DNA of 23,456 nucleotides from a virus. The notes beneath the pieces were generated by a model. The model ran no database searches and was not told the DNA's origin. It saw only the letters and a program-made list of their open reading frames with translations. Position 1 is the first letter of the stretch; each line of letters begins with the position of its first letter. The stretch spans positions 1-23,456 of the IMG/VR virus record IMGVR_UViG_3300049736_000651; one strand, given 5' to 3'. A program made the position numbers and the translations under genes. Of this stretch, positions 1 to 21,387 are shown piece by piece.

Positions 1-1
1 A

Positions 2-100
2 TTTACTAGATTTATGGATCAGGAAATAGCTGATTTTATTTATGAAAAAGATAATATAATTTTTAAATTAGGTAACTATAATAAAGATAGTTGGAAATGA
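2..100 (+). CDS. 3' end of an unidentified gene upstream of the polymerase fragment
   Basis: An open frame runs in from the window edge and ends at a TGA at 98-100. Its last residues read FTRFMDQEIADF, then end LGNYNKDSWK. The stop overlaps the ATG of the polymerase fragment (ATGA at 97-100), so the two are probably translated in sequence. The tail lacks the GQ-containing helix that precedes the DTDS motif in T4-type polymerases, so it does not look like the missing piece of gp43. A homing-endonuclease gene or another inserted gene is possible, but 32 residues are too few to tell. I do not recognise it. Confidence 0.55.
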   Translation, partial: FTRFMDQEIADFIYEKDNIIFKLGNYNKDSWK

Positions 101-1032
101 AGCATTTAGAAGAAACACCTTGGTTTATTTGCGATAAAGAAGACACAAATTATTGTGCTTATGTGGATACAGACTCAAATTACTTTAATGCTGAACCAAT
201 ACTTTTACATTTATTTCCTAATTTTGAAAATTTATCTGATGAAGAAAAAGATGGTAACTTAGAAAAAGTAGCTTTAGCTTATCAAGATATAATAACAGAA
301 GATTATAATAGGTTAGCTCGTGAGACCTTCAACGTCACGAATCACAGACTTGAAATGAAAACTGAATGTGTTATTCGTTCAGCTTATTTCAGGGCAACAA
401 GAAGATACGCACAATGGATTACAAAGCAAGAAGGTATAAACAAAGAAGTCTTGGATATCAAAGGTCTAGAGTTTATGAAAGCAAACTTTCCACCTATTTT
501 GGGGGAATTTTTCAACGATATCCTTCAACAAGTTCTAAAGGGTGAGAAAAAGGATAATATAATAAAACAGATTAAGGATTTTAAACATAAAATAATTAGT
601 GGTAAAATACCATTAACTAAATTAGGTAATCCTACTGCTGTAAAAAAATTACAAAAATATTCTGGACATTCAGCTAGAGCTGGAGAATTATTTACTGAAA
701 TATTAAAGGGAGCACCTGCACCTGTTCGTGCAGCTATTCGTTATAATGATTTACTTAAATTATGGAAATTAGATAGAAAATATAATCTTATTACTATGGC
801 TGATAAAGTTAAATGGATCTATCTAAAAGATAACCCATATAAAATAGAGGCACTAGCATTTTTTGATTATGACATGCCAGATAAGATTAAGGAATTTTTA
901 AATGCTTATGCTGATAGACAAAAAGTATTTGAATCTATATTATTAAATAAATTAGAAGGATTTTTTAGTGATTTACAATGGAGTTTAGATTTAAACCCCT
1001 ACATAAATGCATTTGATTCCTTTGAGGTATAA
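97..1032 (+). CDS. 43: Family B DNA polymerase, C-terminal fragment (palm motif C and thumb)
   Basis: This is the C-terminal third of a T4-type replicative DNA polymerase, 311 residues if started at the ATG at 97. The catalytic motif C, YVDTDSNYF, lies at about residues 22-30 and supplies the metal-binding aspartates. The thumb follows, and the protein ends in FDSFEV, which resembles the clamp-binding tail of T4/RB69 gp43 (LFDMFDF). The exonuclease domain and palm motifs A and B are absent. A TTG start at 91 is possible, but an in-frame TAG at 88-90 rules out anything earlier. The ATG at 97 overlaps the stop of the preceding gene. The rest of the polymerase must be encoded upstream, so the gene is split or interrupted. 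Family assignment is firm; how it becomes a working enzyme is not visible here. Confidence 0.9.
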   Translation: MKHLEETPWFICDKEDTNYCAYVDTDSNYFNAEPILLHLFPNFENLSDEEKDGNLEKVALAYQDIITEDYNRLARETFNVTNHRLEMKTECVIRSAYFRATRRYAQWITKQEGINKEVLDIKGLEFMKANFPPILGEFFNDILQQVLKGEKKDNIIKQIKDFKHKIISGKIPLTKLGNPTAVKKLQKYSGHSARAGELFTEILKGAPAPVRAAIRYNDLLKLWKLDRKYNLITMADKVKWIYLKDNPYKIEALAFFDYDMPDKIKEFLNAYADRQKVFESILLNKLEGFFSDLQWSLDLNPYINAFDSFEV

Positions 1033-1055: not shown

Positions 1056-1778
1056 ATGATAAACAAAAACACACTACAATCTTTTATTGCAAAATATTAC
1101 ATTAATGGATTAAATAATCAGGTTAAATGGAGAATCAAGGATAATACATTAACTGTTTATGCTGGTGAATCAGGTAGGGTATGTAAAGTAGTTTTAGATA
1201 ATTTTGAATTTGAGGATTGTGAAGTAGGAGTATTCGATACAAATAAATTAATAAAACTTTTAGCTATTACAAATGGTGATTTATTATTATCATCTGAAAA
1301 ACAAGGTGAATTACATACCAAATTAAACATATCAGATACTAATTTTGAACTAGCTTACGCTTTAGCTGATACACTTATCATGGGAAAAACACCTTGGTAT
1401 AGTGATCCAGATGAAGGTTTTGAAATTGAATTAGACTTAGAAAGAGAAGAAGTAGATAATTTAATTAAAGCTAAAAATGCTTTAAATGATGTAGACAATA
1501 TGTTAATTCAATCAACTAAAGATTTAGATGGAAATTTAGTTTGCCAATTTTTATTTGGTGATAATACAGGATTTTCAAATAAAATAGAGTACCAATTACA
1601 AGGAATTATAAAAGATAGTGATGTAAAATTACCATTTAATTCTGATATATTTAAAGATATTTTAAATGCAAATAAAGATATAGATAATTGTTCTATTAAA
1701 ATCTCTAAACAAGGGATGATGAAAATTGCATTTGAAGGAGATATAAACAGTATTTATTATATAGCACGAAACGAATAA
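1056..1778 (+). CDS. 45: Sliding clamp (DNA polymerase processivity factor)
   Basis: T4 gp45-type clamp of 240 residues, close to the 228 of T4 gp45. It would form a ring around DNA that tethers the polymerase and, in T4, also activates late transcription. The evidence is overall pattern: an N-terminal start MINKNTLQSFIAKY, the 'V.DTNKLIKLLAITNGD' stretch at about 59-75 that matches the gp45 'YDLNGFLGILSLVNDDA' region, and a closing 'KIAFEGDINSIYYIARNE' like T4's 'AKFEGEHANYVVAL'. It follows the polymerase fragment after 23 bases that hold promoter A. The clamp-loader genes gp44 and gp62 lie 4-6 kb downstream, a looser arrangement than in T4. The ATG falls almost on the predicted transcription start, so the message may be leaderless. 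Confidence 0.85.
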   Translation: MINKNTLQSFIAKYYINGLNNQVKWRIKDNTLTVYAGESGRVCKVVLDNFEFEDCEVGVFDTNKLIKLLAITNGDLLLSSEKQGELHTKLNISDTNFELAYALADTLIMGKTPWYSDPDEGFEIELDLEREEVDNLIKAKNALNDVDNMLIQSTKDLDGNLVCQFLFGDNTGFSNKIEYQLQGIIKDSDVKLPFNSDIFKDILNANKDIDNCSIKISKQGMMKIAFEGDINSIYYIARNE

Positions 1779-2588: not shown

Positions 2589-3011
2589 ATGAGTACATTA
2601 GAAATCTTTGAAAGGCATATAAGTCCTTTCGACATCCTTTTTAGGAATCACTTTAAATCTGACAGCACATTTCAACCTGTTGGAAATTTCAAACAACCAC
2701 ATCCCGTTAATATTTTTTTCAATGATGCAGGACTTCATTTTGAAGTAGCTTGTACGGGTCTTACTAAAAAAGACATTGTAGTAGATATTGAAGGGGATAT
2801 TTTAAAAATTAGTTATACTAAACTAGAAGATGAGAAATTCCATGATGGAATGATTCATAATGGTTTATCTAAAAAATCATTTGATTTAAGATACAAAATA
2901 GCACCTAAATTTGATTTAAGTGGTATTGATGCTATTTTAGAAAATGGTCTATTAGATATTTTTATACCTTTAGCTGATGAAGCTAAACCAAAATCTATTA
3001 AGATTAAATAA
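2589..3011 (+). CDS. hsp20: Small heat-shock protein, Hsp20/alpha-crystallin family
   Basis: A 140-residue small heat-shock protein, an ATP-independent holdase that keeps unfolding proteins soluble. The alpha-crystallin domain covers about residues 38-128. It includes FFNDAGLHFEVACTGLTKKD, the strand KISYTK, and the family's L-E-N-G-L-L-D-I signature at 117-124. The C-terminal IKIK (137-140) is the I-x-I motif that links subunits in the oligomer. Hsp20 genes are frequent in marine T4-like phages. Here it sits just before groES and groEL, making a folding cluster. Start ATG at 2589: the preceding ATG at 2584 is out of frame. No Shine-Dalgarno is visible; the leader contains a UUCG hairpin. Confidence 0.88.
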   Translation: MSTLEIFERHISPFDILFRNHFKSDSTFQPVGNFKQPHPVNIFFNDAGLHFEVACTGLTKKDIVVDIEGDILKISYTKLEDEKFHDGMIHNGLSKKSFDLRYKIAPKFDLSGIDAILENGLLDIFIPLADEAKPKSIKIK

Positions 3012-3021
3012 AAGTTTTACT

Positions 3022-3051
3022 GAAAAAACGTGTCCTAGCAAATGTTTTTTC
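3022..3051. promoter_or_regulatory. Inverted repeat filling the spacer of promoter C
   Basis: GAAAAAAC (3022-3029) and GTTTTTTC (3044-3051) are perfect reverse complements. The pairing continues two more steps inward (one G-T), leaving a loop of about 10 bases. The left arm touches the -33 box and the right arm abuts the -7 box of promoter C. It could be an operator for a repressor, or in RNA a weak T-rich terminator for the hsp20 transcript. Confidence 0.5.
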
Positions 3052-3060
3052 GTATATTGA
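3029..3060 (+). promoter_or_regulatory. Promoter C, before the groES-groEL operon
   Basis: CGTG at 3029-3032, 20 bases, TATATTGA at 3053-3060, with TTTTTTCG directly before the second box. The predicted start (about 3064) coincides with the ATG at 3065. The -33 box keeps only the TG of the TTTG consensus. Confidence 0.55.
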
Positions 3061-3064
3061 CGTT

Positions 3065-3370
3065 ATGAAAAAAAGCAAACAACTTACAATTATAGAAGAT
3101 CCTAAATTGGATCCTTACTTTATAACAAAGGATGACCATTGTTATACTGTACAAGAACGTATTAAACCTAATGCTGACCATTTTAGAACAAAAGGTAAAG
3201 GAAAGGAATATAGTAAACCCCAAACTTACCATCCCAATTTGGGAAGTGCATTAGAATCTATTTCAAAAATGCAATTGCATACGAAAGAAAATTATACATC
3301 TATTGATGATGTTATAGAAAATTATAAAAAAATCGAATCAAATATTAAACAATACATTACACAATTATGA
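3065..3370 (+). CDS. Unknown 101-residue protein leading the chaperonin operon
   Basis: I do not recognise this protein. It is 101 residues long, soluble, rich in lysine, and has no signal peptide or membrane segment. Visible blocks are an N-terminal 'DPYFITKDDHCYTVQE' at about 16-31 and 'YHPNLGSALESISKMQL' at about 55-71. A charged, probably helical tail (IDDVIENYKKIESNIKQY) follows. It is the first gene after promoter C, with an almost leaderless ATG. Its TGA overlaps the groES start (ATGA at 3367-3370), which argues for translational coupling with the chaperonin genes. A role with the chaperonin is conceivable but nothing in the sequence shows one. Confidence 0.7.
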   Translation: MKKSKQLTIIEDPKLDPYFITKDDHCYTVQERIKPNADHFRTKGKGKEYSKPQTYHPNLGSALESISKMQLHTKENYTSIDDVIENYKKIESNIKQYITQL

Positions 3371-3723
3371 ACTTAGAAGCACTATTTGACGCAGTTATTG
3401 TTAAACCTATTGAAAATGAGGAAGTTACTTATGGGGGTATTATTGTACCAGACATGGGTAAAGAATTAAATGAAGTAGGTGAAGTTATAGCTGTAGGTCC
3501 TGGAAAGCATACACATTCAGGAGAATTTTTACAAACAATTATTAAGGTGGGAGATAGAATTGTCTTACCAACTATGGGATTCACTAAACTACAATTTGAT
3601 GGTGAAGAATATTATGTTGGTCCTGAGAATCAAATCTTAGCCAAAGTAACTGTACCAGTAGAAGATGTACTGGCGGAAACAGAAGTAAGTGAAATTGATA
3701 AAGAACATTTAACAGATATATAA
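3367..3723 (+). CDS. groES: GroES-type co-chaperonin
   Basis: A 118-residue co-chaperonin that would form the heptameric lid of the GroEL cage. The core covers residues 4-94: LFDAVIVKPI at the start, a mobile loop with GGIIVPD at 23-29, the GEVIAVGPG turn at 38-46, and VGDRIVLP at 61-68. The hydrophobic IIV of the mobile loop is what contacts the GroEL apical domain in the E. coli pair. It is about 20 residues longer than bacterial GroES (97) because of an acidic tail after residue 94. T4's own co-chaperonin gp31 is much more diverged; this one still looks like cellular GroES. It starts inside the stop of the upstream gene, and groEL follows 2 bases after its stop. Confidence 0.92.
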   Translation: MNLEALFDAVIVKPIENEEVTYGGIIVPDMGKELNEVGEVIAVGPGKHTHSGEFLQTIIKVGDRIVLPTMGFTKLQFDGEEYYVGPENQILAKVTVPVEDVLAETEVSEIDKEHLTDI

Positions 3724-3725
3724 AA

Positions 3726-5372
3726 ATGATTATGAAAAAAGTAGAATTTGGCAAACAAGCCAGAAAAAATTTAATTAAAGGTATAGATATTTTAGCTGAT
3801 GCTGTAGTTTCAACTTTAGGACCTAACGGAAGAAATGTTGTTATAGGTAAGGGTATTATTGACCCACCTCAAAGTACTAAAGATGGTGTTACAGTTGCTA
3901 GAAATATTGTATTAAAAGAAACTAATCAAGAACTTGGAGTTCAATTAGTTAAGTATGCTGCAATTAAAACAGCAGATAAGGCTGGTGATGGTACAACTAC
4001 ATCAACATTATTGGCTAGAGAAATCATTAAAAATGGTTTAACAGCTCTAGATAATAAAGAAAATGCAGTTCAAATCAAAAGAGATATTGACCAATCAGTA
4101 AAAGAAGTTGTTTCACAATTGAAAAAATTATCTGAGGATATAGGTGAAGAAAATCAATTAGAACAAATTGCTACAGTTTCAGCTAATAATGATAATGAAG
4201 TAGGAAAATTAATTGCTACTGCAGTAGATAAAGTTGGTCAACAAGGTGTAGTTCATATTGAATCATCTAGAACAGCAGATAATTATATTGAAACTGTGGA
4301 AGGAATGCAATTTGCTAGAGGTTATAAATCTCCATATTTTGTTACTAACAACAATGATATGACTTCAGTACTTGAAAATCCTGCTATTCTTATTGTTGAT
4401 GGTAGATTATCTTCAGTTAAAGAATTACTTCCAATTTTAGAAGCAGTAGGTGCTCAAGGTAAATCTTTATTAATAATTGCTGAAGATATAGATAATGAAG
4501 CATTAGCTACTCTTATAGTTAATAAAATGAGAGGTACATTAAGTGTTTGTGCTGTTAAAGCTCCCGATTTTGGAGATAGAAGAAAACTTATCTTAGAAGA
4601 TATAGCTATTACTACAGGTGGTACTGTATTTAGTAAAGATAAAGGAATGAAGTTAGACAAATTTAGTTGGGATTGGTTTGGTGAAGCTAGAATAGTAACT
4701 GTAGAAAAAGAACAAACTACTATAGTTGATGGTAAAGGTGAAGTTGAAAAAATTGAATCAAGAATTGAAGAAATTAAAGTTCAACTTGATAAATCAAAAA
4801 CACCTTATGAAACTGAACAGTTACAAAATAGATTAGCTAAATTTGTAGGTGGTGTCGCTATTATTCATGTAGGTGGATTTACAGAAACTGAAATGAATGA
4901 AAGAAAAGATAGAGTTGATGATGCATTACATGCTACAAAAGCTGCAATTGAAGAAGGAATACTCCCAGGTGGTGGTGTTGCTTTACTTTATGCTAGAGAA
5001 GCTATTAAAAATAAAGAAAGTATTGGAGCTGAGATTGTATATAAAGCATGTGGTAAACCATTTGAACAAATATTACTTAATGCTGGTTATGATTCAACTG
5101 AAGCACAATTACTAGGTAAATATAAACTAGTAGATTCAGGTAATGATCATTGGGCAGGAATTCACATTGATGAAGGAAAAGTAATAGATTATAAGGAAGC
5201 AGGAATTATTGATCCAACTAAAGTTACTAGATTAGCATTACAAAATGCAGCTTCAGTAGCAGGTACAGTTTTATTAACAGAATGTACTATTATTGAAGAT
5301 AAAGATAGTGATGAGTTTAAAGATAGAGGTTATGAAAATAATGGAGTACCTCAATCAGGACTTGGAATTTAA
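3726..5372 (+). CDS. groEL: GroEL-type chaperonin, full length
   Basis: A complete 548-residue group I chaperonin, the same length as E. coli GroEL, which folds proteins in an ATP-driven double-ring cage. ATP-site residues are present: TKDGVTVA at 51-58 (D53), the GDGTTT loop at 87-92 (D88), and the hydrolytic aspartate at 399 in VDDALHAT. The signature AAIEEGILPGGG is at 406-417. Apical hydrophobic residues that bind substrate and GroES are kept (ELLPILEA at 233-240, ALATLIVNK at 259-267). The usual C-terminal GGM repeats are missing; the protein ends NNGVPQSGLGI. Start is ATG at 3726 or 3732 (MIMKK). It follows groES by 2 bases. A full GroEL in a phage is uncommon; the gene is intact and has the same base composition as its neighbours. 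Confidence 0.95.
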   Translation: MIMKKVEFGKQARKNLIKGIDILADAVVSTLGPNGRNVVIGKGIIDPPQSTKDGVTVARNIVLKETNQELGVQLVKYAAIKTADKAGDGTTTSTLLAREIIKNGLTALDNKENAVQIKRDIDQSVKEVVSQLKKLSEDIGEENQLEQIATVSANNDNEVGKLIATAVDKVGQQGVVHIESSRTADNYIETVEGMQFARGYKSPYFVTNNNDMTSVLENPAILIVDGRLSSVKELLPILEAVGAQGKSLLIIAEDIDNEALATLIVNKMRGTLSVCAVKAPDFGDRRKLILEDIAITTGGTVFSKDKGMKLDKFSWDWFGEARIVTVEKEQTTIVDGKGEVEKIESRIEEIKVQLDKSKTPYETEQLQNRLAKFVGGVAIIHVGGFTETEMNERKDRVDDALHATKAAIEEGILPGGGVALLYAREAIKNKESIGAEIVYKACGKPFEQILLNAGYDSTEAQLLGKYKLVDSGNDHWAGIHIDEGKVIDYKEAGIIDPTKVTRLALQNAASVAGTVLLTECTIIEDKDSDEFKDRGYENNGVPQSGLGI

Positions 5373-5396: not shown

Positions 5397-5663
5397 ATGT
5401 CAAAAAAGAAGGTTATAGAAGAGAATATTTTAATTGCTCGCAGGGTACCACCAGGTGATAAGTGGAGACTTATTGCAAATGAACCTGATGGTCCTATCCA
5501 TAAAACGCTTACTGATGCCTTAGAAGCTTATATGGTGAAAACTGGCTTTAAAGGGGAGTATAGGTTAGCTCCCCTAAAAAGTGAGTTATATGCTATTTCT
5601 ACAACTGAAGAAGAAGTAAAACCTGAACCAATTAAACAATATTCAATTTATGGAGAATACTAA
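5397..5663 (+). CDS. Unknown 88-residue protein leading the clamp-loader operon
   Basis: Not recognised. It is a small soluble protein of 88 residues with no membrane segment. Residues 7-62 look like a compact alpha/beta domain (ILIARRVPPGDKWRLIA, then LTDALEAYMVKTGF), and the acidic and proline-containing tail 'TTEEEVKPEPIKQY' is probably flexible. It is the first gene after promoter D, with a near-leaderless start. Its end overlaps the gp44 start by 14 bases, so it is probably translated together with the clamp loader. Confidence 0.7.
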   Translation: MSKKKVIEENILIARRVPPGDKWRLIANEPDGPIHKTLTDALEAYMVKTGFKGEYRLAPLKSELYAISTTEEEVKPEPIKQYSIYGEY

Positions 5664-6564
5664 TCATAGTTTACTAGTAGAAAAATACAGACCAGTAAAA
5701 TTAAAAGATTATGTTGGTAATGAGAATTTAAAATCTTCCATTGCATCTCAATTATATAATAATGATATCCAAAATTTTATATTTTATGGACCTGCTGGTA
5801 CAGGTAAAACTACATTAGCTAAATTAATAGTTAATAATTTAGACTGTGACCATGTTTATATAAATGCTTCAGATGAAAGAGGTATTGAAACTATTAGAGA
5901 TAAAGTATCTAGCTTTGCTTCCGTAGCATCATTTAAACCACTTAAAGTAGTTATATTAGATGAAGCAGATTTTCTTACTATACAAGCCCAAGCATCATTA
6001 CGTAATATAATAGAAACATTCTCCAGAACTACTAGATTCATTTTAACTTGTAATTATGTGGAACGAATAATAGATCCACTACAATCAAGATGTCAAGTAT
6101 TAAAAGTAGTTCCACCAAGCAAAAAACAAGTTGCTTACCATTTATCTTGGATTATGGATCTAGAAAAAATTGCATTTGATATGGACAGTTTAGGATCCAT
6201 AGTATTACAATTTTATCCCGATTTAAGAAAATGTATTAATACAATTCAAGCTAATACAGTTAATGGTGAACTTAAATTAGATAAATCAGTTTTATTTTCA
6301 TCTAATTATATAGATGGAATTATAGATGAATTAAAGAAATCTAAACCAAATTTTAAAAATATTAGACAAATAGTTGCTAACGCTAATACAGATGATTATG
6401 AAGATCTATTTAGAACTTTATATGATAAAGCAAGTGATTATATGCCTGGTAAAGAAGGTACAGTAGCTATTTTAGTTAATGACCATCAATACAAAGCTAA
6501 TTTCCGAATTGATAAGGAAATTAATATAATGAGTTTAATTAATAATTTAATAAATAATAAATAA
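5650..6564 (+). CDS. 44: Clamp loader ATPase subunit (gp44)
   Basis: A 304-residue AAA+ ATPase, matching T4 gp44 (319). Four copies with one gp62 would open the gp45 ring and place it on primer-template DNA. It has an N-terminal EKYRP box at 11-15, Walker A GPAGTGKTT at 47-55, Walker B VILDEAD at 101-107, sensor 1 TCN at 133-135, and the SRC arginine-finger motif at 146-148. The C-terminal collar domain covers about 200-304. The ATG at 5650 is chosen because it gives the family's N-terminus; it overlaps the previous gene. The gp62 subunit follows after one small gene. Confidence 0.93.
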   Translation: MENTNHSLLVEKYRPVKLKDYVGNENLKSSIASQLYNNDIQNFIFYGPAGTGKTTLAKLIVNNLDCDHVYINASDERGIETIRDKVSSFASVASFKPLKVVILDEADFLTIQAQASLRNIIETFSRTTRFILTCNYVERIIDPLQSRCQVLKVVPPSKKQVAYHLSWIMDLEKIAFDMDSLGSIVLQFYPDLRKCINTIQANTVNGELKLDKSVLFSSNYIDGIIDELKKSKPNFKNIRQIVANANTDDYEDLFRTLYDKASDYMPGKEGTVAILVNDHQYKANFRIDKEINIMSLINNLINNK

Positions 6565-6839: not shown

Positions 6840-7253
6840 ATGGTTAAAAATGTTTGGGATTGGTTAAAACAGATTAATTCAATTAAATCCGATCCCTCAT
6901 CATTCTCAGATAAAGATTGGGAACTTTGGAATAGTTATATGATTCATAGATTTATGTCTATGAATAGTGACTTTTTGGAGTTAGTAAATGAAGCTCAGAA
7001 AATTCACCCTCAAAATAAGGAACAAATATACTCAATTTATAGAGAATATATTCCTAAGAATAATAAATGGAATAAGTATATTAAATCTAATATCAAACAA
7101 CAAAAAACAGAGTTATTAGTATATTTATCTAAATATTGGGAATGTTCACAAAATGAAGTAAGAGAATATTTGAACTTTTTGGGAGATGACGAAATTTTTC
7201 GTATATTGGAGCGTATGGGAATACAAAAAAAAGAAATAAATAAATTATTATGA
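6840..7253 (+). CDS. 62: Clamp loader small subunit (gp62)
   Basis: A 137-residue protein that fits the short gp62 of marine T4-like phages (T4's own is 187). It opens with a helical WDWLKQINSIKSD segment. A central region rich in K, W and Y follows, and the C-terminal part carries 'YWECSQNEVREYLNFLGDDE', which resembles the 'YFGYSNEKAKQALKILSDEQ' pattern of cyanophage gp62. It would be the single non-ATPase subunit of the gp44/gp62 loader. Position after gp44 supports the call. Sequence conservation in this family is low, so context carries much of the weight. Promoter E lies within its last 25 codons. Confidence 0.75.
   Translation: MVKNVWDWLKQINSIKSDPSSFSDKDWELWNSYMIHRFMSMNSDFLELVNEAQKIHPQNKEQIYSIYREYIPKNNKWNKYIKSNIKQQKTELLVYLSKYWECSQNEVREYLNFLGDDEIFRILERMGIQKKEINKLL
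7178..7209 (+). promoter_or_regulatory. Promoter E, inside the end of gp62
   Basis: TTTG at 7178-7181, 20 bases, TATATTGG at 7202-7209, preceded by TTTTTCG. It lies wholly in gp62 coding sequence. A start near 7213 would give the 7250 gene a leader of about 37 bases. An in-frame gp62 ATG at 7215 sits at the leaderless distance. Confidence 0.5.
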
Positions 7254-9067: not shown

Positions 9068-10516
9068 ATGAATAAAAGTTATAAGTATCTTCCTAAGGAT
9101 AAAAGGAAGAAAATATTATTAATCACAGATGATATAAGAGTACATTCTGGTGTTGCTACAGTAGGTAAAGAAATTGTATTAGAGACTTGTCACCATTATA
9201 ACTGGGTGCAGTTAGCTGGAGCATTAAAACACCCAGATAAAGGCAAAAGATTAGATATTAGTAATGATTGTTCTAAACAAGCTAATATTAAAGATGCTAG
9301 TGTATTTCTTTGGTGTGTAGATGGATATGGAACAGCAGATCTATTAAGACAAGTAATGGCAACTGAAAAACCAGATGCTATTTTACTTATTACAGATCCA
9401 AGATATTTTACTTGGGTATTTAATATGGAACATGAAATTAGAAAAGTATGTCCTATTACTTATCTAAATATTTGGGATGATTATCCAGCTCCAATGTATA
9501 ATAAACCATTTTATGAGTCTTGTGATATGTTAATGGGTATTTCAAAACAAACAGTTAATATTAACAAGCTTGTTTTAGATGATGTTGATAATAGCAAAAG
9601 AGTATTTAAATATGTTCCTCATGGTTTAAATTCCGAACATTACTACCCAATAGATAAAAAAGATAAAAAATATTTAGCTTTTAGAAAGCGAGTATTAGGT
9701 AAAGATGATAACAAAACAAAGTTTGTTGCTTTCTTTAATTCTAGAAACATTAGAAGAAAACAAATTCCAGATACAATGATGGCTTTTAGAGTATTTTTAG
9801 ATTCATTACCTAAAGAAGAAGCTGAAAGTTGTAAATTAGTGTTACATACTGAAGTAATATCTCAACATGGAACTAATTTAGCTAAAGTTAACGAATTTTT
9901 ATTTGGAGAAAAATATCCAAACGCTGTATTATTTTCAACTAACAAATTATCCAGGGAAGAGTTAAATTATTTTTATAATTTAGCTGATGTCCAAATGTTA
10001 TTAACCTCAAATGAAGGTTGGGGATTAACTATAACTGAAGCTATCTTAGCTGGAACACCAATTATAGCTAACACAACAGGTGGAATGCAGGATCAAATGA
10101 GATTTGTAGATGAAAATGGAAAATGGTTTACTCCAAGTCCTGATGTACCTTCTAATCATAGAGGTACTTATAAAGAACATGGTGAATGGGCATTCCCAGT
10201 TTATCCATCGAGTAGATCAGTTCAAGGTTCACCTCCAACACCTTATATTTTTGATGATAGATGTAAATGGGAAGATGCAGTTGATAGATTAACTGAAGTA
10301 TATAATTTATCCCCAGAAGAAAGAAATAAAAGAGGATTGGCAGGTAGAGAATGGGCTATTGGTGATGAAGCTGGCTTTACAGCTAAACATCAAGGTCAGA
10401 GAGTTTTGGAGGCATTTGATGAATTATTTCAAATTTGGGAGCCAAGACCTAAAATGTCGATTACAAACCTTAATGAGTATAAAGGTAAATTTTTAAATCA
10501 TAAATTAATATATTAA
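9068..10516 (+). CDS. Glycosyltransferase, GT4-like (GT-B fold)
   Basis: A 482-residue GT-B glycosyltransferase. The N-terminal acceptor half includes DDIRVHSGVATVGKEIV at 21-37 and a WDDYPAPMY segment at 146-154. The C-terminal half starts near KYVPHGLN at 181-188. It has RNIRRKQ at 226-232, which supplies the basic residues that contact the donor phosphates, and the EX7E motif at E316-E324 (EGWGLTITE). It would transfer a sugar from a nucleotide-activated donor in the cytoplasm; there is no signal peptide or membrane segment. It starts 11 bases after the RHH-like gene, and its stop shares bases with the next GT4 start (TAATG). Confidence 0.87.
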   Translation: MNKSYKYLPKDKRKKILLITDDIRVHSGVATVGKEIVLETCHHYNWVQLAGALKHPDKGKRLDISNDCSKQANIKDASVFLWCVDGYGTADLLRQVMATEKPDAILLITDPRYFTWVFNMEHEIRKVCPITYLNIWDDYPAPMYNKPFYESCDMLMGISKQTVNINKLVLDDVDNSKRVFKYVPHGLNSEHYYPIDKKDKKYLAFRKRVLGKDDNKTKFVAFFNSRNIRRKQIPDTMMAFRVFLDSLPKEEAESCKLVLHTEVISQHGTNLAKVNEFLFGEKYPNAVLFSTNKLSREELNYFYNLADVQMLLTSNEGWGLTITEAILAGTPIIANTTGGMQDQMRFVDENGKWFTPSPDVPSNHRGTYKEHGEWAFPVYPSSRSVQGSPPTPYIFDDRCKWEDAVDRLTEVYNLSPEERNKRGLAGREWAIGDEAGFTAKHQGQRVLEAFDELFQIWEPRPKMSITNLNEYKGKFLNHKLIY

Positions 10517-11817
10517 TGAGTAAACCAACGTTTTATATAAGCTGTCCTTTTGATACCTATAGTGGTTATGGGGCACGTTCTAGAGATATTGTTAAAGCTA
10601 TTATTGAGTTAGATCAATATGATGTTAAACTATTACCTCAAAAATGGGGTGATACAACATGGGGTTTTTGTGCTAAACATGAAGAGTGGAAATTTTTATG
10701 GGATCATGCAGTTCAAGGAGTACCTCAAGGCATCCAACCAGATGTATGGATGCAAATTACTATTCCAAATGAATTTCAACCTATAGGAAAATTTAATATT
10801 GGTTGTACAGCAGGTATTGAAAGTACAGGTTGTACTGGTGATTGGATTGTAGGTTTAAATAGGATGAATATGAACTTTGTTTCATCTAAACACAGTAAAC
10901 ATATATTTGAAAATATTGAATTTGATGCTTTAGATAAGGCTGGAAAGTCTACAGGGCAAATGATTCGTAACCAAAAACCAATTCATGTTGTTTTTGAGGG
11001 TGCAGATTTAGATATTTATAAACATTTACCTTCTAAAGATAATAAATTAAAACTAGATGAAATTAAAGAATCATTTTGTTTTCTATTTGTTGGTATGTGG
11101 ATGGAAGGTGCTGTAGGACATGATAGAAAAAATGTTGGTTTAATGATTAAAAATTTCTATGAAACATTTAAAAATAAAAAAGGTACTAAACCTGCTTTAA
11201 TTTTAAAAGCATCAACTGGAGTAGATAATCATATCAGTAAAGATACTATACAAGATAGAGTTAAAGAAATTAGAGATTCCATAGGCGGAAATGATTTACC
11301 TAATGTTTATTTATTACAAGGTGATTTTACAAACCAAGAAATGAATGAATTATATAATCATTCAAAAGTAAAAGCTATGGTTTCTCATACTAAGGGAGAA
11401 GGTTATGGTAGACCTTTAATGGAATTTTGTTTATCTAAAAAACCAGTAATTGCTTCTGGTTGGTCAGGTCAATTAGATTTTTTACACCCTTCATTTGCTT
11501 ATTTATTACCAGGTAAGATGGAAAATGTACACCCATCAGCTGCTAATAAATGGCTATTAAAAGATTACCAATGGTTTAGTGTTGATCAAGGACATGCTAG
11601 TAAAGCATTTAAAAATGTATTTAGTAATTATAAAAAATATATAGTATCAGCTAAACAACAGGGTCATCATATAAGAACTAATTTTAGTAAAGATAAAATG
11701 AGGGAATTAGTAGGTAATATATTAAAACATAATATACCTGAATTTCCTAAACAAGTAGATTTAAAATTACCTACTTTAAACCCTAAAACAAACGTAGAAT
11801 TACCTAAAATAAATTAA
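10516..11817 (+). CDS. Glycosyltransferase, GT4-like (GT-B fold)
   Basis: A 433-residue GT-B glycosyltransferase. It opens with TFYISCPFDTYSGYGARSRD at 5-24, a glycine loop typical of the GT4 N-terminal domain. The donor half shows FVGMWMEG...RKN at about 191-206, LLQGDFTNQEM at 276-286, and EX7E at E295-E303 (EGYGRPLME). Sugar and acceptor cannot be told from sequence. The ATG overlaps the stop of the preceding GT4 gene by one base; the pair probably act one after the other. The C-terminal tail after about 395 is proline- and lysine-rich (PEFPKQVDLKLPTLNPKTN) and unlike a catalytic domain. Confidence 0.86.
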   Translation: MSKPTFYISCPFDTYSGYGARSRDIVKAIIELDQYDVKLLPQKWGDTTWGFCAKHEEWKFLWDHAVQGVPQGIQPDVWMQITIPNEFQPIGKFNIGCTAGIESTGCTGDWIVGLNRMNMNFVSSKHSKHIFENIEFDALDKAGKSTGQMIRNQKPIHVVFEGADLDIYKHLPSKDNKLKLDEIKESFCFLFVGMWMEGAVGHDRKNVGLMIKNFYETFKNKKGTKPALILKASTGVDNHISKDTIQDRVKEIRDSIGGNDLPNVYLLQGDFTNQEMNELYNHSKVKAMVSHTKGEGYGRPLMEFCLSKKPVIASGWSGQLDFLHPSFAYLLPGKMENVHPSAANKWLLKDYQWFSVDQGHASKAFKNVFSNYKKYIVSAKQQGHHIRTNFSKDKMRELVGNILKHNIPEFPKQVDLKLPTLNPKTNVELPKIN

Positions 11818-11819
11818 TT

Positions 11820-12263
11820 ATGCAATACGATGAAATTATAAATTGTCCTAAGTCAGGAGGTGACTTATGTTATAAAGTTGAAATAAGTAAAGATATAACT
11901 AACTATTTAAGTTTATCTTGTGGTTTTTGGACAAATACTTTAATGAAAGAAGGTTCTGAATTTTATAATGAACAATTAATTACATTACCCGAACTTTATA
12001 AAGATTTAGCTTGGGAAGATCCAGATACTAAACTAATTTGGATTCCAAATACTATTAACCTTCCAGAATCAGGAATGGTTTTTGCTAATGGTGCAAGTAA
12101 AGATGAATGGAGTTGGGCTGGTGTAAAAGCTGTAAAATTAGAAGAAGGAGATGAAGCAAAAGTAGAAGGACAAACACACAAAATGGATATGTCTACATTG
12201 AAATCATTTACAGAACGTGATTATATGGAAGCTCTTTCGTATATTGGAGTATTACCTGAATAA
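11820..12263 (+). CDS. Unknown 147-residue protein in the sugar island
   Basis: Not recognised. It is a soluble acidic protein of 147 residues, opening with 'YDEIINCPKSGGDLCYKVEI'. The region at about 30-70 is aromatic and the second half is rich in beta-type sequence (IPNTINLPESGMVFANG, WAGVKAVKLEEGDEAKVEG). C9 and C17 are the only notable cysteines apart from C34. Its position between a GT4 and a GT2 gene, with 2-3 base gaps, places it in the glycan operon. Its last codons contain promoter G, so the 3' end serves two purposes. Confidence 0.65.
   Translation: MQYDEIINCPKSGGDLCYKVEISKDITNYLSLSCGFWTNTLMKEGSEFYNEQLITLPELYKDLAWEDPDTKLIWIPNTINLPESGMVFANGASKDEWSWAGVKAVKLEEGDEAKVEGQTHKMDMSTLKSFTERDYMEALSYIGVLPE
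12216..12247 (+). promoter_or_regulatory. Promoter G, inside the glycan operon
   Basis: CGTG at 12216-12219, 20 bases, TATATTGG at 12240-12247, preceded by TTTCG. It lies inside the coding end of the preceding gene. A start near 12251 would give the GT2 at 12267 a leader of about 16 bases, making a second transcription unit within the island. Confidence 0.45.
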
Positions 12264-12266
12264 ATT

Positions 12267-12890
12267 ATGAAGATAAGTTACGCAATAACAGTTTGTAATG
12301 AGTTAGATGAAGTAACAAAATTACTAAATTTTCTTATTAAGAAAAAACGTAAACAAGATGAAATAGTTATTTTATTTGATAAAGCTAGCGGTTCTCCTGA
12401 AGTATGGGATAGATTAGCTGAATTAAAAGGAGATGATTGTTGTACTTATCATGCTAAAACATTTAAAAAACATTTTGCGGATTGGAAAAATCACCTAACT
12501 ACTTTATGTAGTGGTGATTATATTTTTCAAATTGATGCCGATGAAATACCTCATACTATTTTAATTGAAGCATTACCTGAAATACTTGAGAGCAACCCTG
12601 ATAATGAAGTATATTTAGTACCGCGAGTTAATACTGTCAAAGGTTTATTAACAGAACACGTAAAAAAATGGGGTTGGAGAGTATCAAATGAAGGATGGGT
12701 AAATTGGCCTGATTATCAATGGAGAATTTGGAAAAACAAACCAGAAATAAAATGGGTAAATAAAGTACATGAAAAATTAGATGGATTCTTAACTTATGCA
12801 CCTTTACCCAAAGCAGAACAATATGCATTATATCATCCTAAGACAATAGAAAAACAAGAAAAACAAAACGCATTTTATGAAACCATCTGA
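12267..12890 (+). CDS. Glycosyltransferase family 2 (GT-A fold)
   Basis: A 207-residue GT2 protein, shorter than the usual 240-300 but with the catalytic core. It opens ISYAITVCNELDEV, the GT2 nucleotide-binding start. D90-A-D92 (FQIDADEIP) is the metal-binding DxD motif. It resembles the LPS beta-1,4-glucosyltransferase/SunS-like branch of GT2. Residues W106-onward carry several tryptophans (WGWRVSNEGWVNWPDYQW) that may line the acceptor site. It lacks a membrane anchor. It follows the previous gene by 3 bases and overlaps the aminotransferase gene by 14. Confidence 0.85.
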   Translation: MKISYAITVCNELDEVTKLLNFLIKKKRKQDEIVILFDKASGSPEVWDRLAELKGDDCCTYHAKTFKKHFADWKNHLTTLCSGDYIFQIDADEIPHTILIEALPEILESNPDNEVYLVPRVNTVKGLLTEHVKKWGWRVSNEGWVNWPDYQWRIWKNKPEIKWVNKVHEKLDGFLTYAPLPKAEQYALYHPKTIEKQEKQNAFYETI

Positions 12891-14073
12891 AACAATACCT
12901 TTATTTAAAGTTTTTATGGCTGATACAGCCGCCCCTGAAGTTACTAAAGTACTTAATAGTGGGTTTATAGGTCAAGGACCAAAAGTAGATCAATTTGAAA
13001 ATCAATTACAAGATTACTTTGGTCATAAACATATTCAAACTTTAAATGCTGGTACTTCTGCTTTACATATGGCTCTTCATTTGCTAAAAAAACCTAAACC
13101 TCACTGGGATGAAGATGTATTTCAAGGTGTAGCTTGGGTATCTCATAATTGGCCTGGTTTAGAACCTGGTGATGAAGTATTATGTACAGCAATGACTTGT
13201 ACAGCTTCTAATTGGCCAGTTTTAGCTAATGGTTTAAAAATAAAATGGGTAGATATAGATCCAAAAACATTAAATATGGATCTTGATGATTTAAAAAGAA
13301 AAATAACACCAAAAACTAAAGTAATAATGGGTGTTCATTGGGGTGGTTATCCTATTGATTTAGATGAATTAAGAAAAATTAGAACTAGTTTTAGAGGTGA
13401 ATTTGGTTGGGCTCCTGCTGTTATAGAAGATGGTGCTCATTCATTTGGGTCTAAATATAAAGGTAAATTTATTGGTACTAATGATAATTTAACTATGTTT
13501 TCTTTACAAGCTATAAAACATATTACTTCTATTGATGGTGGTTTATTATTTAGCCCTCATAAAGAATTACATGATAGAGGTAAATTAATTAGATGGTATG
13601 GTATTGATAGAGATGGTGATAGAAAAGATTTTAGATGTGAAGCTGATATACCTGAATGGGGTTATAAATTTCATATGAATGATGTTTGTGCTACAGTAGG
13701 AATGGAAAACTTTAAACATTTAGATAATATAATTTCTAAACATAAAGAAAATGCTGCTTACTATGATGAACATTTACAAAATACCCCAGGAGTAACTTTA
13801 TTAGAAAGAAAAGAAGGATTTGAATCCGCATTTTGGATTTATTCTATGTTAGTAGATGATAGAGATGGTTTTTATAAATACATGGATGAATGTAAAATTT
13901 CAGTATCCCAAGTACATGAAAGAAATGATAAACATAGCTGTGTAAAAGAATTTAAATCTCAATTACCTAATTTAGATAAAACAATTGGTAAAATAGTAAA
14001 TATACCTGTTGGGTGGTGGGTTACACCTGAACAAAGAGAATATATCGTAAAATGTATTAGAAAGGGCTGGTAA
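12877..14073 (+). CDS. DegT/DnrJ/EryC1-type PLP sugar aminotransferase
   Basis: A 398-residue PLP enzyme that would add an amino group to a keto-sugar nucleotide. It has the family N-terminus (IPLFKVFM, then LNSGFIGQGPKVDQFE at 26-41) and the NAGTSALHMAL segment at 57-67, where the cofactor phosphate binds. D185 and H188 of EDGAHSF and the PLP-binding lysine K214 (FSLQAIKHITSIDGG) are present. About residues 71-100 hold an unusual tryptophan-containing stretch (PHWDEDVFQGVAWVSHNWPG) not typical of the family. A partner 4,6-dehydratase is not visible here, so the keto-sugar may come from the host. The ATG at 12877 gives the full N-terminus despite overlapping the GT2 gene. Confidence 0.9.
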   Translation: MKPSETIPLFKVFMADTAAPEVTKVLNSGFIGQGPKVDQFENQLQDYFGHKHIQTLNAGTSALHMALHLLKKPKPHWDEDVFQGVAWVSHNWPGLEPGDEVLCTAMTCTASNWPVLANGLKIKWVDIDPKTLNMDLDDLKRKITPKTKVIMGVHWGGYPIDLDELRKIRTSFRGEFGWAPAVIEDGAHSFGSKYKGKFIGTNDNLTMFSLQAIKHITSIDGGLLFSPHKELHDRGKLIRWYGIDRDGDRKDFRCEADIPEWGYKFHMNDVCATVGMENFKHLDNIISKHKENAAYYDEHLQNTPGVTLLERKEGFESAFWIYSMLVDDRDGFYKYMDECKISVSQVHERNDKHSCVKEFKSQLPNLDKTIGKIVNIPVGWWVTPEQREYIVKCIRKGW

Positions 14074-15524
14074 TGAGAAAAGCTTGGGAAATTAAAACAT
14101 TTGATTATGTTGTAAATTTTTGGTTTGGTCCTAGATCAACAAAAAAAAGATATAAATACGATCCTAAGAGTAAAACAGCTAAACAATTAGCTCTTGTTTA
14201 TGGTCAATGGTACCAACAAGTTCACCATTATTATCTAGTTAATGCTCATTGTAAATTTATTAAAAATAATAATATAGATAATTTAAATAAAGTTTATTTT
14301 GTTATTAATGAGTGGGAAGAACAAGATAATTCAAAAGTATATTACGAAGTATTAGAAGTAGTTAAATGGTATGGGTTAGAAGGTAAAATTAAAGTTATAT
14401 TTCATGATAATACTAATCATTCTTATGGTGCTTGGAATAAAGGAATTAAACAATTAATTGAAGATGGAAGTAAATCTGATTATGCATTTTTATGTGAAGA
14501 TGATTATTTACCTGTTGATGAAGAATTTTACAAACCATTCTTTTTTAAATTTGATAAAGACAAAAGTAATAATGTTGGGTATATAGCTCAACATATAGAT
14601 GATGTTAAGTATCATAGAAATGTTTATAAAAAAGGTGTAGGTAGTATAAATACCCACCATACTCAAAAACATGCCGCTGTAAGTAATGGATTTTTAAATT
14701 TAAACATAGCAAAAACTATTCTTAAAAAATATAAAAATGTATTTGAATTTAACCTATCAGATTTTGAAAATGCTAATTTATCTACCAGAGCTAAAGAACA
14801 AATAATATTTACTAATTATATTACAGATGAGGGTTATAAATTAAAAAGTATTAGTGATATATGTTATGTTCCTTTTGATATTCAGAATAATAATAAAATA
14901 AAAGATTTTGGTAATATATCAGATTATTGCCCAATAAAACCTTATGAGTATGGTCCACCAAAAACAGTTTTATCTAATGGGCAAGAATTAGTAAATGATG
15001 ATAAGGAAATTAAATTTAGAGATATGACTGAATCTGATTTAAAGTGGTTTTTAGAGGTAAGAAATGATGATTCAACTAGAAATTTTTTATTAGATAATAG
15101 TATATTTAGTTTAAATGAAGCTCAAGAATGGTTTAAAAATTTAGACAAAACACTATTCCCATATCAGATTATATCACGTATAGAAAGAAAGTATATTCAA
15201 AATGAAGGAAATTATTTACGTCAAAAATCTAATTTTTTTGAAATTGAACTTCCTATTGGTTATACTAGAAGATATATGACTGAAATTAATGGCGAAGAAA
15301 TAATTGAATTAGGATGTGACATTCATCCTAAACATAGAAGAAAAGGATATGCTAAAAAAGCTTATATTCATATGTTATCTCAACTTGAAACTGCCTCTTT
15401 ATGGGTTTTTGAAGATAACTTTGCTCGTAATCTATATTTTGAATTAGGTTTTAGAGATAATGGAGTAACTAAAATAAACAGAGGTAGAAAAGAATATCAA
15501 ATGGTATGGAAAAGAAAGATTTAA
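14073..15524 (+). CDS. Fusion: GT-A-like glycosyltransferase plus GNAT acetyltransferase
   Basis: A 483-residue two-domain protein. Residues 1 to about 300 look like a GT-A domain: YGAWNKGIKQL at 118-128, then FLCEDDYLP with acidic E142-D143-D144 as the metal site, and a 'HAAVSNGFLNLNIAK' segment. Residues about 312-483 are a GNAT domain: EIKFRDMTESDLKWFLEVRN at the start, the acetyl-CoA-binding HPKHRRKGYAKKAY at 418-431, and ARNLYFELGFRDNG near the end. This would allow one protein to transfer a sugar and acylate it. Its GT half resembles the C-terminal half of the fusion at 18103-19569. The start shares bases with the previous stop (TAATG). Confidence 0.8.
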   Translation: MRKAWEIKTFDYVVNFWFGPRSTKKRYKYDPKSKTAKQLALVYGQWYQQVHHYYLVNAHCKFIKNNNIDNLNKVYFVINEWEEQDNSKVYYEVLEVVKWYGLEGKIKVIFHDNTNHSYGAWNKGIKQLIEDGSKSDYAFLCEDDYLPVDEEFYKPFFFKFDKDKSNNVGYIAQHIDDVKYHRNVYKKGVGSINTHHTQKHAAVSNGFLNLNIAKTILKKYKNVFEFNLSDFENANLSTRAKEQIIFTNYITDEGYKLKSISDICYVPFDIQNNNKIKDFGNISDYCPIKPYEYGPPKTVLSNGQELVNDDKEIKFRDMTESDLKWFLEVRNDDSTRNFLLDNSIFSLNEAQEWFKNLDKTLFPYQIISRIERKYIQNEGNYLRQKSNFFEIELPIGYTRRYMTEINGEEIIELGCDIHPKHRRKGYAKKAYIHMLSQLETASLWVFEDNFARNLYFELGFRDNGVTKINRGRKEYQMVWKRKI

Positions 15525-16303
15525 AATTTTTAATTATATTTTTTTATTATAATAGACCTGATATGGTCAGGAATGCTTTAAATAGTATTAATAAATTAAC
15601 CTACAAAAACTTTGAAGTAGCATTTATTGATGACGGAAGTGAAACAGCGGGAGAACCCATTGTTAGAAGCATTTTAAAACCTAGTTTTCTAAAGAAAGTA
15701 AAATTTATTAATACAAATGATACAATTGAAGCTAAAATAGCTAGAGAAGGTAGTGAAATAGGAAAATATGCAAATGAAGCAATTAAAGAATCTGATGCTG
15801 ATATAGTTTTAATGTTATGTGATGATGATGCATTAGTTCCTGATTATTTAAACAGTCTAAACCGTTTTTATCAGTATAATCCTAAAATTCATTATGCTTA
15901 TTGTAAATTAAAATATTATAACCCAACAGAAACGAGTTATACACGAGCTAAACCGAATGAAGAGGATATAACTAATAAATTAATAAATCCAGTTACCAAC
16001 CTAGATTCATCTCAGGTAAGTTGGAGAAGACAAAGTATGTTAGATAAAGACTTTTGGTTTCCACACCCTAGAACTAGAAATTTAGACGCAGTAATGTTTG
16101 TGCATCTATGGCATCATTATAAACATTGTGCACCATTAAAAGAATATGGTCAATATAAAGCAATTTTTGATGATCAATTAGGTAATAGAAACCATGGATT
16201 CTACCAGTTAGATAAATGGACTGATTATAGTAAGTATGCGGGTGTTGAAAAATCACCTTTAGATAATGATCCTTATGAAGAATACAGAATCACCTCCAGA
16301 TAG
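15506..16303 (+). CDS. Glycosyltransferase family 2 (GT-A fold)
   Basis: A 265-residue GT2 protein. LKFLIIFFYYNRPDMVRNAL at 6-25 and FIDDGSE at 40-46 (D42, D43) form the nucleotide-binding part. MLCDDDALVPDYL with D106-D108 is the metal-binding motif. The C-terminal region (DAVMFVHLWHHYKHCAPL) would face the acceptor. The hydrophobic N-terminus is a beta strand of the fold, not a signal peptide. The ATG at 15506 overlaps the end of the upstream fusion gene, and the gene's 3' end overlaps the sulfotransferase by up to 38 bases. Confidence 0.85.
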   Translation: MEKKDLKFLIIFFYYNRPDMVRNALNSINKLTYKNFEVAFIDDGSETAGEPIVRSILKPSFLKKVKFINTNDTIEAKIAREGSEIGKYANEAIKESDADIVLMLCDDDALVPDYLNSLNRFYQYNPKIHYAYCKLKYYNPTETSYTRAKPNEEDITNKLINPVTNLDSSQVSWRRQSMLDKDFWFPHPRTRNLDAVMFVHLWHHYKHCAPLKEYGQYKAIFDDQLGNRNHGFYQLDKWTDYSKYAGVEKSPLDNDPYEEYRITSR

Positions 16304-17204
16304 AAGGTCAAATTTCCTTCATTATTATGCGGAACCAAATTTCCGTATTAATGATTCGTTATGGAAGTATTGTCCTTCTGATCATTTACTTCATATTCAT
16401 ATTCCTAAATGTGCTGGTACTTGGTTAAAACAAATCGTTTATAATTCTCAATCTGGTACTCATAGATTTAATCATGGTCACCTTCCTGCTGGAATACAAA
16501 AGAAAATGTTAGAAGAAAGAGGTTTTAAATGGGATCAATTTAAACCTTGGGCTATTGTAAGAAATCCTTGGGATAGATTATGGTCAGCTTATAAATATAC
16601 TAAATGGGGTGGGTCCGAAGTTAATTTAAGACCTGTAATGGAGACAAGAGGTAAAATGCAATGGAGAGGTCAAAATTGGAAAAGAAATGGAGAAGTATTT
16701 ATAGGTTATAAAGGTGTTTTACCAATCCACCACTATAATTTGCAACATTTATTTGATATGGAAAAGGAATCTACAGAAAAAGTAGAACTTGGTTGGTTAA
16801 AGAATTCAACTATAGGCCATAATTTTAAATCTTATGTTACTAATTTATATAACAGAATCCCAGGTAAAAGTATAAGTAAATCTGATAATATTCCTTGGTG
16901 GCGACAAATAGAAAAAAATATTTATTTAGATCCTCAACTTTGTTTTTTAAGGGAAATGCCTGAAAAAGGTGAAGTGATTGTTCCACATTTATTTCGTTCT
17001 AATGAAATTAAAAAGTTTTTAAAATGGGCACAAGATAATAGTAAGGATAAGTTTATGACACAAAGATCATCTGATAAGAAATCTTATAATAAATCATCTA
17101 ATCAAATTCACTATACTAATGTTTATGATGATGATATGATTAATATGGTAGGTGAATTATATAAGAAAGATATTGAATATTTAAATTACAGTTTTGAAGA
17201 ATAA
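16266..17204 (+). CDS. Sulfotransferase (PAPS-dependent)
   Basis: A 312-residue sulfotransferase, which would move sulfate from PAPS to a hydroxyl, most likely on a sugar. The 5'-phosphosulfate-binding motif is HIPKCAGTWLKQ at 45-56. The 3'-phosphate-binding motif is WAIVRNPWDRLWSAY at 95-109. HLF at 234-236 with RSNE is a typical later block. Start is ATG at 16266 or 16275; later methionines (from residue 81) would remove the PAPS site, so the overlap with the GT2 gene is real. PAPS itself would have to come from the host, since no ATP sulfurylase or APS kinase is present here. Sulfated glycans are common in marine bacteria and algae. Confidence 0.85.
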   Translation: MILMKNTESPPDRRSNFLHYYAEPNFRINDSLWKYCPSDHLLHIHIPKCAGTWLKQIVYNSQSGTHRFNHGHLPAGIQKKMLEERGFKWDQFKPWAIVRNPWDRLWSAYKYTKWGGSEVNLRPVMETRGKMQWRGQNWKRNGEVFIGYKGVLPIHHYNLQHLFDMEKESTEKVELGWLKNSTIGHNFKSYVTNLYNRIPGKSISKSDNIPWWRQIEKNIYLDPQLCFLREMPEKGEVIVPHLFRSNEIKKFLKWAQDNSKDKFMTQRSSDKKSYNKSSNQIHYTNVYDDDMINMVGELYKKDIEYLNYSFEE

Positions 17205-18103
17205 TGTTACAGTTTAAGTTATATAAAGATAAAATTTACAATTCAGGTGAAGTTGAAAAACTAGGCATAGCAGTAGAAAAACTTTTACCTGAATATACAT
17301 TACCAAAAGATTATAGTGGTTGGTTTCCATTTACACGTTTATGTTTTTCTTTAGGTGATTGGGCTATTATCAGTGGGTTACCTGAGGCATTAAAAATAAA
17401 ATATCCTAAAATAAAAATTGCTTTACCATCTAATGAATATTTAACTAAAATTTTTGATAATTTGGATACTTGGAGTTATGGTAATAATAATCCATTAGAT
17501 TATTTAGATATAATATTTAAAAATAATCCTTATATAGACTATAGATTTAACCCAGGAGATTTTGATATAATTTATACGGATCATGATAGAGCTTATACAA
17601 ATGATATTAACATACCTTTAGCTGAACAAATATTATTAAGATTTGGTTTAAGTCAAGATGAAGTTAATAATGTTGACTGTAGGCCTAATTTATTTTTTGA
17701 TAGAGATGAAATACCAAATCCTGACATTAAAGATGAATATGGGTGTTTATTATTTGCTTCTAGAATAGATAAATTAAAAGGCAGATGGGATGATAAAAAC
17801 TTGATTAAAGAAGCTAGGAAATACAAAGATATTCCCGTATATTATTATAGTGAATTTGATTTGAAAGATACTGAATGGGATGAATTATTTCCTATTCGTT
17901 ATGATTTATCAAGATTAAATTTAAGAGAACAATTAGTTATTAAATCTAGAGCAAAATTTAATATAGGTTATCAAGCAGGAATGAATGATGCTGTTAGTAG
18001 ACATTCTAATAATATTATTTTAACTCCTTATGATAATGTAAAAGAAAATATAATAAGAAATGTTAAATACATCCATCTTGATGGAAAAATAAAACAAATA
18101 TAA
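17204..18103 (+). CDS. GT9-like (heptosyltransferase-type) glycosyltransferase
   Basis: A 299-residue protein with the outline of a GT-B transferase of the GT9/heptosyltransferase type. Near residues 48-76 is 'CFSLGDWAIISGLPEALK' followed by KYPKIKIALPSNEY, which matches the glycine-containing first loop and second strand of GT9. The C-terminal half begins near 'GCLLFASRIDKLKGRWDD'. It ends with 'KSRAKFNIGYQAGMNDAVSR' and 'NNIILTPYDN', the donor-site part where GT9 proteins have S/G-x-x-H/A-G. Identity to the family is low, so a related GT-B class is possible. It shares its start base with the sulfotransferase stop (TAATG). Confidence 0.65.
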   Translation: MLQFKLYKDKIYNSGEVEKLGIAVEKLLPEYTLPKDYSGWFPFTRLCFSLGDWAIISGLPEALKIKYPKIKIALPSNEYLTKIFDNLDTWSYGNNNPLDYLDIIFKNNPYIDYRFNPGDFDIIYTDHDRAYTNDINIPLAEQILLRFGLSQDEVNNVDCRPNLFFDRDEIPNPDIKDEYGCLLFASRIDKLKGRWDDKNLIKEARKYKDIPVYYYSEFDLKDTEWDELFPIRYDLSRLNLREQLVIKSRAKFNIGYQAGMNDAVSRHSNNIILTPYDNVKENIIRNVKYIHLDGKIKQI

Positions 18104-21384: not shown

Positions 21385-21387
21385 ATT

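Follow-up and report, generated by a model that had tools for sequence, protein, structure and literature searches.

The window analysed here, a linear virus record of 23,456 nucleotides (nt; IMGVR_UViG_3300049736_000651), starts inside a gene that lies directly upstream of 43B, the gene for the C-terminal part of a T4-type family B DNA polymerase (PolB; gp43). Based on the comparison of 43B with its relatives in other viral contigs, the virus very probably possesses a two-subunit T4-type DNA polymerase whose intercistronic junction serves as a slot for cargo genes. The split of the polymerase is real, old, clade-wide and selected, and the clade that carries it comprises many bacteria-infecting viruses of oceans and lakes.

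The two halves of the polymerase

43B is the first complete gene of the window (97-1032, plus strand) and codes for 311 amino acids (aa) with the N-terminus MKHLEETPWFICDKEDTNYCAYVDTDS, which align to positions 565-842 of the 856 positions of PHROG 262 (gp43). As claimed in the first-pass annotation, which was made from the sequence of the window alone, this frame starts about 20 residues before the motif YVDTDS, its ATG overlaps the preceding stop codon (ATGA, 97-100), and the palm domain is interrupted after motif B and before motif C. The DTDS sequence (166-177), the first residue of which is residue 24 of 43B, is invariant in 48 of 48 aligned split polymerases. It is preceded by a lineage-specific N-terminal extension of 43B, and because of this extension the stretch from the helix that follows motif B to motif C comprises 47-49 residues in split polymerases as compared to 28-29 in unsplit relatives, i.e. 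it is about 20 residues longer. An AlphaFold2 model of 43B alone matches RB69 gp43 with a Foldseek probability of 1.00; the thumb is predicted confidently (blocks above 80-90) and residues 1-30, including motif C, poorly, as expected if the strand carrying motif C requires the other half of the enzyme.

This other half, 43A, could be located in the contigs L003 (44 kb) and L002, which represent the same virus as the window (99.97% nucleotide identity over 6,029 bases). Here, 43A (567 aa) lies upstream of 43B on the same strand, separated from it by a gap of 1238 base pairs (bp), so that the N-terminal part of gp43, which the first-pass annotation had suggested looking for in the preceding DNA, is indeed present there. 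Besides the exonuclease motifs, 43A harbours motif A, motif B (KILLNSLYG) and, near its C-terminal end, a GQ-type helix (AITLSGHRIIQES), and it ends at the position of residue ~609 of T4 gp43, nine residues before the catalytic D618. As 43A aligns to positions 57-569 of PHROG 262, no palm sequence is lost when both halves are taken together. In L026, L029, L040, L070 and L332, 43A carries an extra C-terminal tail (e.g. ...IKEQPRPMW).

The 1238-bp gap is occupied by three complete, head-to-tail open reading frames (ORFs) of 87 aa, 123 aa (DUF6165/DUF4254) and 206 aa (sulfotransferase-like; the Pfam sulfotransferase match is weak, E=0.02-0.03). The end of the last one, which is complete at 4384-5004 in L002/L003, forms the left edge of the window. 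Thus, the absence of the GQ helix from the tail upstream of 43B, to which the first-pass annotation had drawn attention, is correctly observed, but results from the fact that this tail ends a cargo gene and not 43A, at the end of which the helix is found.

A scan of viral contigs identified 477 relatives, 80 of which were fetched, and after further scans 97 distinct split polymerases with a measurable gap were available. 43B starts at the same Met in all 80 fetched relatives, 43A is located upstream of it on the same strand in each of the 73 first-scan loci that reach that far, and the cut at T4 gp43 residue ~609 is common to the 97 distinct relatives. In a mixture model tree of 26 polymerases the split ones form one clade (support 100/100), adjoining unsplit PolBs of the type found in Microcystis phage Mel-JY01, for which a separate scan scored 77 loci as intact. 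A T4-type gp23 capsid gene is present in 4 of 10 split records, which identifies these viruses as T4-like. Bins labelled as Flavobacteria hold four of the seven matches in genome collections, a weak hint at the host since such contigs are easily mis-binned.

The catalytic residues D112, E114, D219, D324, D408, K557, D618 and D620 (T4 numbering) are kept in every one of the 48 split rows that covers them. The ratio of non-synonymous to synonymous substitutions (dN/dS) is 0.02-0.23 for both halves in 11 of 12 pairs, with a range of 0.03-0.18 for 43B, so that these sequence comparisons indicate purifying selection on 43A as well as on 43B. One 43A value of 1.2 (pair L248/L128) was discarded, as rows of equal length had been compared ungapped and compensating indels are suspected. 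Selection on 43B agrees with the earlier claim that its product is used, although the intact clamp-binding tail on which that claim was built is not clear-cut: 43B of the window ends in NAFDSFEV, which is weaker than the FFNF/FFSF of relatives, and it is the basal members that have FFSF or FFNF. Apart from this, the KKRY sequence of T4 (702-705; residues 102-104 of 43B) is TRRY in nearly all split polymerases and KKRY-like in most of the unsplit ones compared.

These data also bear on the idea that 43B is a decaying pseudogene or an artefact of a defective genome and that a different polymerase replicates the virus. The records are fragments, and such a polymerase could lie outside them; however, both halves are under strong purifying selection, all catalytic residues are kept, the split recurs in more than 100 contigs, and neither a second complete PolB nor a PolA was found in nine related records of 44-119 kb, which are themselves incomplete genomes. 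We consider this idea scarcely credible. A complete gp43 elsewhere and an assembly error had been named at the outset as alternatives to a genuine split; the first was not encountered in the nine records and the second is ruled out by the more than 100 contigs.

Cargo genes at the junction

Among the 97 split polymerases the distance between 43A and 43B ranges from -4 to 4214 bp (median 649), whereas 43B and the downstream clamp gene are separated by a median of 23 bp with an interquartile range of 23-32. The steady spacing on one side of 43B and the variable one on the other, together with the existence of empty and filled sites, mark the junction as a relative hotspot of gene exchange. The stop codon of the last cargo gene, or of 43A, overlaps the start of 43B by 4 nt in 43 of the 97 cases and by 1 nt (TAATG) in another 28. 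These numbers are based on stop-to-start distances; that 43B begins with ATGA in 97/97 was dropped as evidence for an overlap, since its second codon nearly always starts with A.

The coding fraction is near 1.0 in most gaps, and the ORFs found there fall into 21 clusters. DUF6165/DUF4254 genes occur in 64 loci and a cupin of the mannose-6-phosphate isomerase type in 20, and the remaining ones include genes for sulfotransferase-like proteins, DegT aminotransferase, glycosyltransferase, epimerase, formyltransferase, GNAT, methyltransferase and DUF2452 proteins, and, in the first set of loci, a cytidylyltransferase. Judged by these families, the cargo appears to serve mostly sugar-coat chemistry; besides the 87-aa ORF it comprises glycan and small-molecule enzymes.

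Some members contain no insert at all. In L283, L293 and L302, which form one freshwater-type group, and in L329 the stop of 43A and the start of 43B share ATGA; in L331 the two overlap by 1 nt and in L332 they are 9 nt apart, both of these records ending within 43B. L307 provides the near-identical filled site, as a single 123-aa DUF2452 gene is located exactly at the ATGA, and its flanks are 93-95% identical to those of L283, L293 and L302 over the last 86 bp of 43A and 96-97% over the first 900 bp of 43B. Similarly, viruses with 98% identical 43B genes have gaps of 264 bp on the one hand and 999 or 1,398 bp on the other. With such pairs of closely matching viruses, one with and one without an insert, the sequence of events becomes open to testing.

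The most frequent insert is the 87-aa ORF, which is found between the halves in 92 of the 97 split polymerases and is the sole insert of the smallest filled gaps (~260-285 bp). This distribution would fit a third subunit or an assembly factor of the split polymerase, with the other gap genes being passengers. We regard such a role as unlikely, as the ORF is missing from the empty-site members and from L307, its presence requires at least three gains or losses on the tree, and the model of the protein, of moderate confidence only (predicted local distance difference test, pLDDT, 70), has no match in the PDB. A further point against it is that in L104 (6001-6264) the gene is located away from any polymerase, between a cupin gene and queC, and can thus travel with cargo. 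As its state changes three or more times on the tree, the ancestral junction may have been either empty or filled.

Mobile elements and the origin of the break

An inserted homing gene or intron had been thought likely from the window alone. DNA is indeed inserted between the halves, but it consists of cargo genes: among the gap ORF clusters scanned with Pfam there is neither a homing-nuclease family nor anything resembling one, no Rfam intron match was obtained in 13 loci, no intein is present in the tail of 43A or at the start of 43B, where DTDS is uninterrupted, and the split also occurs free of any insert. At the level of sequence, a homing explanation for the present-day inserts is not supported.

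The same observations are relevant to whether the messages or proteins of 43A and 43B might be rejoined to give one chain, be it by group I intron splicing, trans-splicing, a split intein or a programmed frameshift. Group I introns and split inteins are known in other phage PolB genes, and the 4-nt overlap of members without insert (-1 frame) would formally be compatible with a frameshift. Nevertheless, rejoining is very improbable, as most gaps are filled by complete ORFs with their own stops, 43A and 43B each retain a conserved stop and start of their own, no obvious slippery heptamer is found at the overlap, and neither an intron in the 13 loci nor intein sequence in either half was detected.

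We favour a model in which 43A (exonuclease, motif A, fingers, motif B) and 43B (motif C, KxY region, thumb) are translated separately and would assemble into one enzyme, their association and activity being what we infer from the sequences. The chain is broken in the short loop between the helix that follows motif B and the strand with the catalytic DTDS, leaving all secondary structure elements whole. This break is an old, clade-wide trait for which no mobile element is needed, because the two ORFs of some members simply overlap by ATGA. The junction, in turn, would act as a neutral landing site at which entire genes, their stops and starts overlapping, are gained and lost while both halves stay intact, and the array would probably be translated by coupled termination/reinitiation at the ATGA/TAATG overlaps. 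What the sequences show directly is the gene order, the position of the split, its conservation, the selection on both halves and the empty and filled sites; the order in which the split and the cargo arrived is likewise an inferred part of the model. In its full form, i.e. that the clade fixed a polymerase with a break separating motif B from motif C and that this break became a dedicated slot, in which accessory genes are swapped by ordinary recombination without a mobile element and are protected by the essential, highly conserved half-genes on either side, we give the scenario even chances.

The split might instead have been caused by an intein or a free-standing homing endonuclease that invaded the motif C region and was later lost, with the cargo entering afterwards. 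Motif C is a known intein site, as illustrated by the split intein of PolB16 OarG, which was tested with the extein SGDTD (PMC10189870), a split intein also interrupts the PolB of jumbo phage MIJ3, where an HNH gene lies in between (PMC6892783), and erratic intein excision has been proposed as the source of split archaeal PolB3 genes (PMC4104785). Moreover, the PolB of the uncultured huge phage LR756508 (L084:2-6852, L339) resembles the clade in that its chain is interrupted in the same loop ahead of motif C and that four unrelated genes separate the halves, but differs from it in carrying inteins at motif B (327 aa) and motif C (312 aa). On the other hand, no remnant of an intein was found in the split clade, in which 43A stops ~14 residues past the helix and DTDS of 43B is uninterrupted; the cut precedes the intein site of motif C by ~25 residues; none of the gaps examined contains an endonuclease; and the split is clean and insert-free in L283, L293, L302 and L329. 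LR756508 itself groups with unsplit relatives in the careful tree (92/81), whereas a quick tree and the approximately unbiased (AU) test disagree, the latter not rejecting that it joins the split clade. Its split is probably a separate event, and a scan of viral contigs with its C-terminal half found no relatives. All in all, we hold an origin by invasion and loss to be less likely than not.

Several points weigh against a two-subunit enzyme with a neutral cargo slot that arose without a mobile element. Binding of 43A to 43B and polymerisation are predictions from sequence, and as the records are metagenomic fragments a second polymerase could lie elsewhere in the genome. With its presence in 92 of 97 gaps, the 87-aa ORF is steadier than neutral cargo should be. 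Three gap clusters without a Pfam match and two unscanned short ones (47 and 53 aa) were judged by eye, and LR756508, with its same-loop split and its inteins at motifs B and C, lends some probability to an intein-mediated origin.

A split gp43 as such is already known. The Aeromonas phages 44RR2.8t, 25 and 65 likewise encode a T4-type PolB in two cistrons on the same strand, and according to review text the two products of phage 25 are reported to co-purify with polymerase activity (PMC2988022), which implies that a two-chain gp43 can work. However, the cuts in 44RR and 65 correspond to T4 residues 510 and 514, which belong to the fingers, precede motif B and are ~100 residues from the cut at ~609 described here, the spacer of 44RR is an untranslated sequence and that of 25 a seg endonuclease gene, while 65 has none, and metabolic cargo is absent, and the Aeromonas split polymerases sit elsewhere in the PolB tree. 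A common event was thus rejected on the grounds of cut position (44RR, 65) and tree. The closest unsplit relatives, those of Microcystis phage Mel-JY01 and related aquatic viral contigs (~34% identity), share the order of the replication genes, but their PolB is one chain of ~840-850 aa, without the 20-residue extension before motif C and with nothing inserted. MIJ3 and PolB16 OarG also have a PolB broken into two ORFs (PolB16 in motif C), yet their halves bear intein fragments and MIJ3 an HNH gene in addition, whereas the split clade has neither intein nor endonuclease. The DNA polymerase of the OM43 phages MEP401/MEP402 belongs to a different lineage related to Zobellviridae, and the available part of their description mentions no variable cargo. 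Compared to a canonical T4-type gp43, the exonuclease and polymerase motifs with their catalytic carboxylates are all found in the split clade, but not on a single polypeptide. No description of the clade was found in the open-access literature, most subscription papers lying outside this search; the new points are the cut position, the lack of any mobile element at it and a metabolic cargo that varies.

The clade thus offers a natural, clade-stable two-chain form of one of the best-studied replicative polymerases, cut fewer than ten residues from the catalytic aspartates, and is a ready test of how two chains may build up a palm domain. In addition, it points to a route of viral gene gain other than homing, in which conserved half-genes provide the homologous ends for swapping what lies between them.

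Neighbouring genes in the window

The features of the window that belong to the junction and to the replication genes are listed in Table 1. The predicted small subunit of the clamp loader has no Pfam match, but aligns in order with the annotated clamp loader A subunit of Mel-JY01.

Table 1. Junction and replication features of the window (aa, amino acids).
Feature	Position	Strand	Basis
End of cargo gene (32 C-terminal codons and stop)	2..100	+	Frame translation; sulfotransferase-like protein, 206 aa
ATGA junction, 43B ATG (97-99) overlapping upstream TGA (98-100)	97..100	+	Sequence
43B, C-terminal subunit of T4-type family B DNA polymerase (palm from motif C, and thumb)	97..1032	+	PHROG 262 565-842; AlphaFold2/Foldseek; dN/dS
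Lineage-specific N-terminal extension of 43B, MKHLEETPWFICDKEDTNYCA	97..159	+	Length comparison with unsplit relatives
Motif C, YVDTDS	160..177	+	Alignment; D24 and D26 of 43B correspond to T4 D618 and D620
Sliding clamp, gp45-like, 23 bp after 43B	1056..1778	+	PHROG 223 DNA polymerase processivity factor, E=8e-6
Clamp-loader large subunit, gp44-like AAA ATPase	5650..6564	+	Pfam AAA / DNA_pol3_delta2; gene order as in Microcystis phage Mel-JY01
Probable clamp-loader small subunit, gp62-like	6840..7253	+	Position only

Genes for Hsp20 and for GroES-like and GroEL-like chaperones (2589-5372) stand beside the replication genes. An ORF at 22841-23395 matches GIY-YIG weakly (E=0.008, which falls short of the Pfam cut-off); it is located ~22 kb from the polymerase and has no link to the split. 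Downstream of the replication genes, a glycan-building island (9068-22224) contains glycosyltransferase, aminotransferase, acetyltransferase, sulfotransferase, methyltransferase, epimerase and UDP-sugar dehydrogenase genes. The DegT gene of the window (12877-14073) is ~80% identical to copies that reside in the polymerase slot of L284 and L157, i.e. the same kind of gene occupies different places in these viruses.
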